From NCBI RefSeq assembly GCF_014643535.1, contig NZ_BMJQ01000004.1, positions 248,001 through 312,000 on the forward strand: DNA of 64,000 bases. Direction: 5' to 3'. The notes beneath the pieces were generated by a model. It did not search any database. It worked only from the letters and a program-made list of their open reading frames with translations, and was not told the origin of the DNA. This stretch comes from Aliidongia dinghuensis (GTDB lineage: Bacteria; Pseudomonadota; Alphaproteobacteria; ATCC43930; CGMCC-115725). This document shows, in pieces, positions 41,504 to 44,568 of this stretch (positions are counted from its first letter, which is position 1; each line of letters begins with the position of its first letter). Position numbers and translations under genes: made by a program.

Positions 41504-42271
41504 ATGCCGCCCATGACCGCCGAAGACGCCGCATCGAATGCCGAGCTCGTCGTCGATCTCGACGGCTTCGAGGGCCCAATCGGCATGCTCCTGGTGCTGG
41601 CGCGCGAACAGAAGGTCGATCTGACGCGCATCTCGATCCTGGCCTTGGCCGAGCAGTACCTGACCTTCATCGCCGAGGCGCATCGGCTCCGGCTCGAGCT
41701 TGCGGCCGACTATCTGGTGATGGCCGCCTGGCTCGCCTATCTCAAGTCTCGCATGCTGCTGCCCGATCCGCCGCCGGAGGACGAGCCGAGCGCGGAGGAA
41801 TTGGCTGAAGCGCTGCATTTCCGCCTGCTGCGTCTGGAAGCGATGCAGAAGGCCGGAAAGTCGCTGATGGAACGGCCGCAGCTCGGCCGTGACATGTTCG
41901 CGAACGGCGCGCCGGAGGGGCTCAAGACCGTGGCGCGCCCGGTCTATGCGGTCAGCCTCTATGAACTGCTCAAATCCTATGGCGACCATCGCTCGCGCGG
42001 CGAGGCGACGGTGCTGCACATCCGCGCGCCGGAATATTTCTCGGTCGACGATGCCATCCGGCGGCTCTCGCAGATGATCGGGCACAGCGTCGAGTGGCGG
42101 CAGTTGGGCCAGTTCCTGCCGCCGCAGCTGCGTACAGGCGTGCTCGGCCGCTCGGCCTTGGCCGCGACGTTTGTCGCCAGCCTGGAATTGACCAAGAGCG
42201 GCGAAATCGAACTGCGCCAGGACGAGACTTACGGGCCGATCTTCGTGCGCGGCGTGAGGCCCGGCTCATGA
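41504..42271 (+). CDS. scpA: Segregation and condensation protein A
   Basis: 255 residues, kleisin subunit of the SMC condensin. The N-terminal motif DLDGFEGPIGMLLVLAREQKVD and the C-terminal winged helix are readable. The ATG directly follows the previous stop. It binds SMC heads and ScpB; the latter is encoded next, with an ATGA overlap. Confidence 0.93.
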   Translation: MPPMTAEDAASNAELVVDLDGFEGPIGMLLVLAREQKVDLTRISILALAEQYLTFIAEAHRLRLELAADYLVMAAWLAYLKSRMLLPDPPPEDEPSAEELAEALHFRLLRLEAMQKAGKSLMERPQLGRDMFANGAPEGLKTVARPVYAVSLYELLKSYGDHRSRGEATVLHIRAPEYFSVDDAIRRLSQMIGHSVEWRQLGQFLPPQLRTGVLGRSALAATFVASLELTKSGEIELRQDETYGPIFVRGVRPGS

Positions 42272-42972
42272 CGGCGCCAGACGCAACTGCATCCGAGATG
42301 ACTGATCGAGAATTGGCCGAGCAGGACGGCGAGGCCGAGATGCCGGAGCCGACCGATCGGGACACGGAGCGGGAACGCGCGCTGCGCCTGATCGAGGCGT
42401 TGCTGTTCGCGTCCGACCGGCCGCTCGGCGACGCCGAGCTTGCGGCCCGCCTGCCCGAGACGCTGGTGCTCGAAGAACTCATCGAGACGCTGCGCACGCA
42501 CTACCGCTTCCGCGGCATCAACCTGGTGCGTGCGGCCGGCGGCTGGACCTTCCGAACCGCGCCGGACCTGGCGGGCTTGCTGGCACACGAGACCGTGCAG
42601 GCGCGCAAGCTGACGCGCGCCCAAATCGAGACGCTTGCCATCATCGCCTATCACCAGCCGGTGACGCGCGCCGAGGTCGAGGAGATTCGGGGCGTGACGC
42701 TGGCCAAGGGCACGCTCGATCTCCTGATGGAGGCGGGTTGGGTCATGCCGAAGGGCCGGCGCGAGACCCCGGGCCGGCCGGCGACGTGGGTTACGACTGA
42801 AGGATTCCTTCTGCATTTCGGCCTCGATTCGCTGCGCGACCTGCCGAACGTCGACGAGCTCCGGGCGGCCGGTCTGCTCGATGCGCGCCCGGCCTCGACG
42901 CTGGGCGAGGCGGCGCCGGAGGAGAGCGACGACGACCGCGGTTATGCTGGCGAGGAGGATGATCCGCCATGA
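42268..42972 (+). CDS. scpB: Segregation and condensation protein B
   Basis: 234 residues. Two winged helices are recognisable: RLIEALLFASDRPLGDAEL and KLTRAQIETLAIIAYHQPVTRAEVEEIRGV, the strong ScpB signature. An acidic C-terminal tail (EESDDDRGYAGEEDD) follows. The start overlaps scpA by ATGA, as expected for subunits of one complex. Confidence 0.94.
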   Translation: MTAPDATASEMTDRELAEQDGEAEMPEPTDRDTERERALRLIEALLFASDRPLGDAELAARLPETLVLEELIETLRTHYRFRGINLVRAAGGWTFRTAPDLAGLLAHETVQARKLTRAQIETLAIIAYHQPVTRAEVEEIRGVTLAKGTLDLLMEAGWVMPKGRRETPGRPATWVTTEGFLLHFGLDSLRDLPNVDELRAAGLLDARPASTLGEAAPEESDDDRGYAGEEDDPP

Positions 42973-43085
42973 TCGCGGCCCTGCTCGCGACCCGGCTCGC
43001 GGTCATGCCGGAACAGGCGGCAGATGCGCAGCCCGCCGCGTTGCTTGGGCCAGGCCTTTCTGCCATCATCCGCGCCATTCGATGA
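42969..43085 (+). CDS. Possible 38-residue microprotein overlapping scpB
   Basis: An ATG overlaps the scpB stop (ATGA) and opens a 38-codon frame (MIAALLATRLAVMPEQAADA at its start; closing SAIIRAIR). The N-terminal third is mildly hydrophobic. Position and coupling favour translation; composition gives no family. It might instead be fortuitous. Confidence 0.35.
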   Translation: MIAALLATRLAVMPEQAADAQPAALLGPGLSAIIRAIR

Positions 43086-43103
43086 GGGCGGTTGGAGCGG
43101 CGC

Positions 43104-43211
43104 GTGATCGGTATCGGTATCTGGCAAGTCGTTCTGGCGGTAGCGATTGCGGCGCTCGCGGCCTGTGGGCTCCTGAGCGAGCGCCGGCACCGCTCGCGCG
43201 ACGATCGCTAG
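43104..43211 (+). CDS. Reduced TatA-like membrane peptide (35 residues)
   Basis: GTG start with GGAG 6 bases upstream. The product begins MIGIGIWQVVLAVAIAALAA, then CGLLSERRHRSRDDR: one transmembrane helix with a polar/aromatic start like TatA (xIW followed by an apolar helix), but lacking the FG hinge and the amphipathic helix. It occupies the place, between scpB and tatB, where tatA normally lies in alphaproteobacteria. I tested the other two reading frames downstream and found no amphipathic helix. It is either a truncated tatA, a diverged small subunit, or chance; the strong ribosome site argues for expression. Confidence 0.5.
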   Translation: MIGIGIWQVVLAVAIAALAACGLLSERRHRSRDDR

Positions 43212-43279: not shown

Positions 43280-43774
43280 ATGTTTGATTTCGCCTGGTCA
43301 GAGATAGCCGTTCTCGGCGTGATCGCGCTGGTCGTGATCGGGCCCAAGGACCTGCCGCGGGCGCTCAAGACGGCCGGGTTCATGGTCCGCCGGGCGCGCA
43401 TGCTGGCGCGCGAGTTCCAGAGCAGCGTCGACGACATGATCCGCGAATCCGAGCTGCACGACATCCGCGAGCAGGCGGCGAAGGCGGCCGGCGTCGACGA
43501 CCTGAAGCAGGCGGTTCAAGAAGCGATGGACGTCGGCGGCGAGATCCGCAACGTCGTGAACGAACCGCTGGGTGGGCCGGCACTCCAGCCGCCGGGCGCG
43601 CCGCAGACCCTCGAAGGCGCGACGGCCGAGAGCCCGGCGGCAGCATCTTCCCCGACAACGCCTGCTTCCACCGAACATCCAGCGCCCGAACATCCAGCGC
43701 CCGTGACCGACCATCATTCCGAGGCGGGCAAGGACGCACCGCCGGAGCTGCATAGGACCCCGCCCGCACCATGA
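43280..43774 (+). CDS. tatB: Twin-arginine translocase subunit TatB
   Basis: 164 residues. MFDFAWSEIAVLGVIALVVIGPKDLPRALK is the TatB/TatA transmembrane helix with the conserved Glu8 and the GPK hinge, followed by an amphipathic helix (ARMLAREFQSSVDDMI) and a long Pro-rich cytoplasmic tail with two EHPAP repeats. TatB binds TatC and the twin-arginine signal peptide. Glu8 and the hinge proline support TatB over TatA. It overlaps tatC by ATGA. Confidence 0.92.
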   Translation: MFDFAWSEIAVLGVIALVVIGPKDLPRALKTAGFMVRRARMLAREFQSSVDDMIRESELHDIREQAAKAAGVDDLKQAVQEAMDVGGEIRNVVNEPLGGPALQPPGAPQTLEGATAESPAAASSPTTPASTEHPAPEHPAPVTDHHSEAGKDAPPELHRTPPAP

Positions 43775-44568
43775 GCGACGAGCTCGACGAAGGCCGCATG
43801 TCGCTGATCGAACATTTGATCGAACTGCGCAAGCGCCTCATCTACTCCCTGTCCGGTCTCCTGGTGTGCTGGGGCGTCTGCTACTACTTCAGCGAGGAGC
43901 TGCTCGATTTCCTGATCCGCCCGCTGGCGGCACAATTCGGTGCCGACTCCGGTCGACACCTGATCTACACGGCCTTGACCGAGGCGTTCGTCACGCGGGT
44001 CAAGGTCGCGTTCTGGGCGGCCTGCTTCCTGGCGTTTCCGCTCATCGCGACGCAGGTCTGGATGTTCGTGGCGCCGGGCCTCTACAAGAACGAGCGCAAG
44101 GCGTTCATGCCATACCTGGTGGCGACGCCGATCCTGTTCTTCATGGGCGGGGCGCTCGTCTATTACCTGATCTTCCCGACCGCCTGGCACTTCTTCCTGA
44201 GCTTCGAATCCGCCGGCAATCCCGGCAGCCTGCCGATCGAAGCCGATCCCAAGGTGAGCGAGTATCTGTCGCTCGTCTTGACGCTGATCTTCGCCTTCGG
44301 CGCTGCGTTCCAGATGCCGGTGGCCCTCACGCTCATGGCGCGGGTCGGACTCGTCAGCTCGAAGTTCCTGGTCGAGAAGCGGCGCTACGCCATCTTCATC
44401 AACTTCGTCATCGCCGCCGTGCTGACCCCACCCGACGCCATCAGCATGACCGGCCTCGCCGTGCCGCTGCTGCTGCTCTACGAGATCTCGATCTGGAGCT
44501 GCCGCATCGTCGAGCGCAACAAGGCGAAGCGCGCAGCCGAGATCGCTTCCGACCTCGCCAAGCTTTAG
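43771..44568 (+). CDS. tatC: Twin-arginine translocase subunit TatC
   Basis: 265 residues, six transmembrane helices. The N-terminal region MSLIEHLIELRKRLI holds the conserved signal-peptide-binding site, and FVAPGLYKNERK and LTPPDAISMT are family landmarks. It recognises folded Tat substrates at the inner membrane. The start overlaps tatB. A hairpin without T-tract (44575-44597) separates it from serS. Confidence 0.95.
   Translation: MSDELDEGRMSLIEHLIELRKRLIYSLSGLLVCWGVCYYFSEELLDFLIRPLAAQFGADSGRHLIYTALTEAFVTRVKVAFWAACFLAFPLIATQVWMFVAPGLYKNERKAFMPYLVATPILFFMGGALVYYLIFPTAWHFFLSFESAGNPGSLPIEADPKVSEYLSLVLTLIFAFGAAFQMPVALTLMARVGLVSSKFLVEKRRYAIFINFVIAAVLTPPDAISMTGLAVPLLLLYEISIWSCRIVERNKAKRAAEIASDLAKL

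Follow-up and report, generated by a model that had tools for sequence, protein, structure and literature searches.

In TatA, a transmembrane helix leads into an amphipathic helix; residue 8 of TatA and of TatB belongs to the polar cluster of TatC, and TatA can occupy the site of TatB where the latter is missing (PMC5201420). In the A1B2C3 core, one TatA takes a TatB-type position, with a single helix in the slot via residue 8 and the amphipathic helix unseen, and the latter is not visible in the TatAC structure either; TatA and TatB compete, and later exchange of TatA into the TatB site is unlikely, the site being buried (PMC13323110). In that structural model, the core TatA helix and the large pool are the same TatA, one protein with both roles (PMC13323110). 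A second TatA site on TatC has also been described (PMC10197872). Two TatA-type genes per genome are likewise known from E. coli TatE and from C. jejuni TatA2, the latter without key residues (PMC5777986, PMC4148689). The available portions of these two papers hold no description of a helix-only paralogue, and no account of a helix-only TatA was found in the open-licence literature, which was mostly judged at the level of listings.

In other alphaproteobacteria, tatA lies immediately 5' of tatB. In the window, i.e. the whole 64,000-nucleotide stretch of Aliidongia dinghuensis DNA analysed here, this position holds a 35-codon open reading frame (ORF). The encoded peptide shares with TatA (TIGR01411/PF02416) the place of the gene, a single helix, a GIGIWQ-type N-terminal helix and a polar residue at 7-8, but it is shorter, has neither the FG hinge nor the amphipathic helix, and is not reported by the library models. 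Unlike TatE and TatA2, it is helix-only and encoded before tatBC. It is similar to the core TatA of A1B2C3, which is an ordinary TatA (PMC13323110); in the present genome, the slot might be served by a gene of its own that encodes a helix only. Judged from sequence, the ORF is probably (at roughly 55%) what remains of a redundant tatA of the operon, pared down to one helix with the potential to dock on TatC.

Gene context and features of the peptide

The ORF is preceded by scpA (41504-42271; Pfam SMC_ScpA, 5.2e-14) and scpB (42268-42972; Pfam SMC_ScpB, 3.5e-47) and followed by tatB (43280-43774; TIGR01410, 3.6e-18, above the cut-off) and tatC (43771-44568; TIGR00945, 1.6e-64), all on the forward strand. 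Both pairs share an ATGA overlap, and the Pfam and NCBIfam matches confirmed the genes, in agreement with the first-pass annotation, which had called scpAB and tatBC intact and overlapping. Its account of a 35-codon ORF in the tatA position, with GGAG six bases before a GTG, was also borne out. Specifically, the ORF (43104-43211, forward strand) runs from a GTG at 43104 to a TAG at 43209-43211, encodes the 35 residues MIGIGIWQVVLAVAIAALAACGLLSERRHRSRDDR and ends 68 bases before tatB; the Shine-Dalgarno-like GGAG (43094-43097, forward strand), six bases 5' of the GTG, is kept in the second genome of the genus (G001). A TTG at 43092 is also open and would give a 39-aa form with MERR added at the N-terminus. 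The GTG is the preferred start, as the Shine-Dalgarno spacing matches and a Gln falls at position 8. The shorter form also agrees with the effect of an eight-residue N-terminal extension of Providencia TatA, which blocks contact with TatC (PMC3712462). Additionally, a promoter-like element (TTGCTT-17 bases-CATCAT; 43041-43069, forward strand), which is a candidate promoter by consensus match, ends 34 bases 5' of the GTG.

The N-terminus MIGIGIWQVVL equals the start of one type of TatA. Numbered from the GTG, Gln8 is present in both species, within the Trp7-Gln8 of the TatA-type N-terminus, and this polar residue 8 is a predicted TatC contact as in TatA and TatE. A single-sequence AF2 model gave one straight helix from residue 3 to 34 (mean pLDDT 83, pTM 0.40). 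At 35 aa, compared with about 67 or more in the TatAs met in this analysis, the peptide does not keep the FG hinge residues. An HMM of the amphipathic helix gave at most −2.0 bits before tatB in the three forward frames of both species, compared with 48 bits for the full TatA of the window genome (used in training) and 6.7 bits for one in-situ ORF of the sister family described below (not used in training). The absence of a hinge and an amphipathic helix, with no other frame supplying them, had been claimed from the letters and was confirmed for the forward frames. A frameshifted or mis-sequenced tatA was not supported, as the other forward frames show nothing similar to an amphipathic helix and a second genome has the same ORF; because G001 carries this ORF, a sequencing error confined to the window is unlikely.

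Likeness to TatA was scored with an HMM of 45 TatA N-termini, 6 of which had been fetched because they resembled the peptide, against a background of 1184 N-terminal-helix peptides from fetched loci, including loci fetched for the same reason. The window peptide scored 10.7 bits and the G001 peptide 11.9 bits. A score of at least 10.7 was reached by 113 of the 1184 background peptides, all of them TatA, in-situ ORFs of the sister family or the genus peptide, and by 3 of 5000 shuffled peptides, and the best non-Tat peptide scored 7.4. Without the 6 peptide-fetched rows, the scores were 8.9 and 10.1, respectively; 5 of 5000 shuffles reached 8.9, and so did 114 background rows, none of them non-Tat as called by the TatA pattern plus inspection by eye of 7 rows outside it. 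When four further IWQ- or PWQ-type rows were removed (35 rows left), the scores collapsed to 3.4 bits for the window peptide and 2.1 for the G001 peptide, 121 of 5000 shuffles reached 3.4, and 23 of the background rows that scored as high fell outside the TatA pattern, 14 of them non-Tat. Because of this collapse, the peptide is taken to resemble the IWQ-type TatAs and not the HW type of the present family. The likeness to TatA N-termini suggested earlier thus held for the IWQ type (10.7 bits) but not for the family's own type. That the peptide is TatA-like, of IWQ type and with one helix only, stands as a reading of its sequence.

The same likeness was found in searches of 385 genomes of the class. 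A profile built from the two peptides (E ≤ 0.01; scoring limited to 19 candidates per genome) matched in 25 genomes, 23 of them outside the genus; the best match outside the genus (L108) and three others (L113, L114 and L119) were TatA N-termini from three genera, and the other 19 of the 23 were not TatA. A DNA pattern for GIGIWQ matched in 24 of the 385 genomes, compared with 3 matches for the reversed pattern. Among the 22 matches outside the genus, 8 were TatAs encoded immediately 5' of tatB, in which the motif sits at residue 2 or 3, 4 resembled what we take to be PpiD, and 10 were other proteins.

Some of these results could also mean that an unrelated small membrane protein arose de novo in the space from the tat promoter to tatB and resembles TatA by convergence. 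The sister genus and other genera of the family are without the peptide, the library TatA models miss it, it is unlike the HW-type TatAs of the family, and 14 of the 22 GIGIWQ matches outside the genus are not TatA. We nevertheless regard convergence as improbable: the hexapeptide lies at the extreme N-terminus, immediately 5' of tatB, as in the 8 TatAs, and no non-Tat peptide scored as high as long as the model included IWQ-type TatAs, even without the peptide-fetched rows.

The 39-aa form was not reported by Pfam TatA_B_E or NCBIfam tatAE at E ≤ 1, i.e. it does not pass the curated TatA/TatE family models; its weak library matches, LptM (0.011) and DUF6338 (0.01), were both under the cut-off. 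Against PDB sequences, the peptide found no Tat protein (best E 1.8 as a single sequence and 0.37 as a profile). The NCBIfam LptM match (E 0.011), together with LAAC-G in the window sequence, raised the reading of a small LptM-like lipoprotein with LAAC as its lipobox. From the GTG start, however, the N-terminus carries no positive charge, and the lipobox cysteine, Cys21, is Tyr in G001; we rejected this reading as extremely improbable.

Full-length tatA and the scpB-tatB interval in relatives

A search of the rest of the genome, proposed in the first-pass annotation, found a full-length tatA. The window genome (G000; 7.37 Mb, 91 contigs, 100% complete) encodes a canonical 75-aa TatA on contig C28 (PF02416, E 9.1e-10; sequence MGGLSLVHWIIILFVIVLLFGAGRISPMMGELAKGMKAFKQ...), and among its 8 PF02416 matches just this TatA and the TatB of the window were above the cut-off. 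The gene adjoins what is presumably a hisC-like gene, and a relocated tatA near a gene that we take to encode a hisC-like aminotransferase was seen at 7 of 30 family loci in five genera (L078, L079, L084, L087, L094, L099 and L107). A TatA relative was present in 32 of 39 family genomes and in all 21 high-quality ones; across the order, 40 of 43 genomes had PF02416 matches, TatB matches counted in. With the C28 gene and the 21 of 21 high-quality family genomes, the suggestion of a two-component TatBC system whose tatA had been lost was dropped. The C28 TatA starts MGGLSLVHW, and the peptide as a copy of this distant tatA was not favoured. As a separate observation, three family genomes (G011, G018 and G044) have two TatA matches each, and the pair on G011:C32 (L080) is adjacent on the same contig.

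Outside the order, tatA preceded tatB at 5 of 5 loci (L018, L030, L031, L036 and L038), and the same held for 4 of 5 named loci outside the family (Arenibaculum, Ferrovibrio, Minwuiaceae and PL25b, not Elstera); in Arenibaculum (L072), a full TatA (MSIGIWQVILILAVVLIIFGAGKLP...) is encoded immediately 5' of tatB. Within the family, a tblastn search (E 1e-3), which also misses the divergent in-situ ORF of the sister family, found no TatA in the stretch of up to 1.5 kb before tatB at any of 19 loci outside the genus. At 16 of these 19 loci scpB was on the locus; the scpB-tatB interval was 1-203 bases in 15 and 540 bases in one, and no TatA-like ORF was read in any of the 16, the 540-base interval having a different ORF of 139 aa. 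At the remaining three (L014, L017 and L022), tatB begins 41-59 bases after the promoter-like element, too close for a TatA-like ORF. Peptide relatives in the family outside the genus were limited to weak matches in 36 of 37 genomes (best E 0.002), with none in the remaining one.

The sister family (f2) has a 65-72 aa TatA-like ORF between the promoter-like element and tatB at 4 of 4 loci (L025, L029, L034 and L035). Its canonical tatA lies elsewhere, away from tatB, near what is presumably glmM in 3 of 3 cases examined. The in-situ ORF and the peptide thus share a place between the promoter-like element and tatB and a canonical tatA elsewhere. They differ in that the former is 65-72 aa long, has an FG-like hinge in 3 of 4 cases and a weak amphipathic region (6.7 bits for the single ORF scored), and has no scpB seen in the stretch upstream. 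Moreover, the in-situ ORFs start with MPS(A/V)LEI and not with GIGIWQ, change rapidly (six pairs, dN/dS 0.41-0.94), and in one case gave a sub-threshold PF02416 match (18.7 bits).

In a tree of TatC alone, the genus paired with g3 (100/99), and the first split within f1 was weakly supported (59/44); the single readable g3 locus has an empty interval of 121 bases. In the comparison of scpB-tatB intervals in relatives, the peptide was kept in G001 and absent from g3 and the other family genera examined. Since these have an empty slot, descent from an in-slot tatA implies no fewer than two losses within the family. The alternative origin is an ancestral loss of tatA, with a TatA-like start arising anew in the genus. 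Descent is favoured because place, promoter and N-terminus agree.

Conservation within the genus

The genus sample consisted of two genomes, G000 and G001, both of which carry the peptide. The G001 peptide (MIGIGIWQVVLTVAIAALAVYGLVRSRRRRSNDDR) is identical to that of the window at 27 of 35 residues, in the same frame and with the same length, and the ORF has no stop or frameshift in either species, with the Shine-Dalgarno sequence and start kept. The first-pass annotation had named, as grounds for giving up its reading, a full-length tatA elsewhere combined with a non-conserved or frameshifted peptide in close relatives; the C28 gene supplies the former, but in G001 the peptide is conserved and unshifted. 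Over the 35 codons there are 22 base differences (5, 5 and 12 by codon position) and 8 residue differences. For this one genome pair, NG86 gave dN 0.146, dS 0.576 and dN/dS 0.25 for the peptide; dS was 0.55 for tatC, tatB and scpA and 0.77 for scpB, and dN/dS was 0.47 for tatB, 0.16 for tatC, 0.15 for scpA and 0.13 for scpB. When the 22 changes were placed at random, with stops disallowed and the start kept, about 13 residue changes were expected compared with the 8 observed, and 8 or fewer arose in 0.3-0.5% of draws. Within the limits of two genomes, these values suggest that the genus has kept the peptide as a conserved gene; because it was found in two genomes only, its conservation is read from a single comparison.

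This constraint bears on the possibility that the ORF is a decaying relic, i.e. the leftover N-terminal end of a redundant tatA, perhaps still translated, which has no role and is caught in two species before it disappears. Decay would agree with the 19 of 19 other family loci without TatA before tatB, the fast evolution of the f2 in-situ ORFs and the presence of a full tatA elsewhere. The peptide is, however, more constrained than tatB (0.25 vs 0.47), and its intact frame, Shine-Dalgarno sequence and start speak against decay, which we consider possible but rather unlikely.

The ORF could also be a leader or attenuator that controls tatB translation, the peptide itself being unimportant. A scan for TTGCNN-17-CANNAT upstream of tatB, in which a CTG beside the −10 was also required and spacers of 15-19 were permitted, found the promoter-like element at 19 of 30 loci in two families of the order (the window and 18 others), with a spacer of 17 in all 19. 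If this consensus match is the tat promoter, the peptide would be the first ORF of the tatBC transcript, and its position after a conserved element and 68 bases 5' of tatB would suit a leader. At 13 of the 19 other family loci, however, tatB follows the element by 39-123 bases, and the 16 intervals read hold no such ORF. Moreover, the leader RNA before tatB folded no better than shuffles (z −0.57) and had no match in an Rfam search. Together with the amino-acid constraint on the peptide, these results make control by a leader ORF very improbable.

A possible role for the helix-only peptide

Reduction of an in-operon tatA to a docking helix remains our preferred reading. It fits because the ORF occupies the tatA position of other lineages and encodes a TatA-type N-terminus but neither the hinge nor the amphipathic helix. 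The earlier proposal that TatA has been reduced to a minimal subunit thus applies at the locus but not to the genome, which keeps a full tatA. In the proposed course, an ancestral tatA once stood before tatB and the ORF would be its reduced descendant; the separate full-length tatA would now provide TatA, and the in-operon copy may have shrunk to a transmembrane helix with a short basic tail.

As the putative first gene on the tatBC mRNA, the ORF would yield a membrane peptide oriented with the N-terminus out and the basic tail in. The helix bearing Gln8 could then dock on TatC in the slot for the TatA or TatB helix. The docked peptide might serve as an operon-made TatA within the core complex, or else keep the slot occupied or act as its brake, and would be unable to help build the translocation site. 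Because exchange into the buried TatB site is unlikely (PMC13323110), docking would need to occur during assembly. Made along with TatB and TatC, the peptide could fill the slot at that stage, outside the mobile TatA pool. It is conceivable, although doubtful, that the two TatAs share labour, with the helix-only operon product as core TatA or slot regulator and the full-length TatA as the only mobile pool that forms the translocation site.

With a natural TatA that has only the docking helix, and a second gene for a full TatA, the two roles could be distinguished. The locus also suggests a stepwise reduction of a redundant subunit, from the full tatA of other lineages to a divergent ORF (f2), a helix only (the genus) and nothing (the other family genera examined).

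As a side observation, position 8 of TatB is His, not Glu, at L011, L013, L014 and L038, and at these loci TatC has Met at what we take to be the position aligning with E. coli Gln215. Covariation between TatB position 8 and TatC position 215 is possible; the same TatC Met, by our assumed alignment, occurs with TatB Glu8 in the window, G001 and L024.
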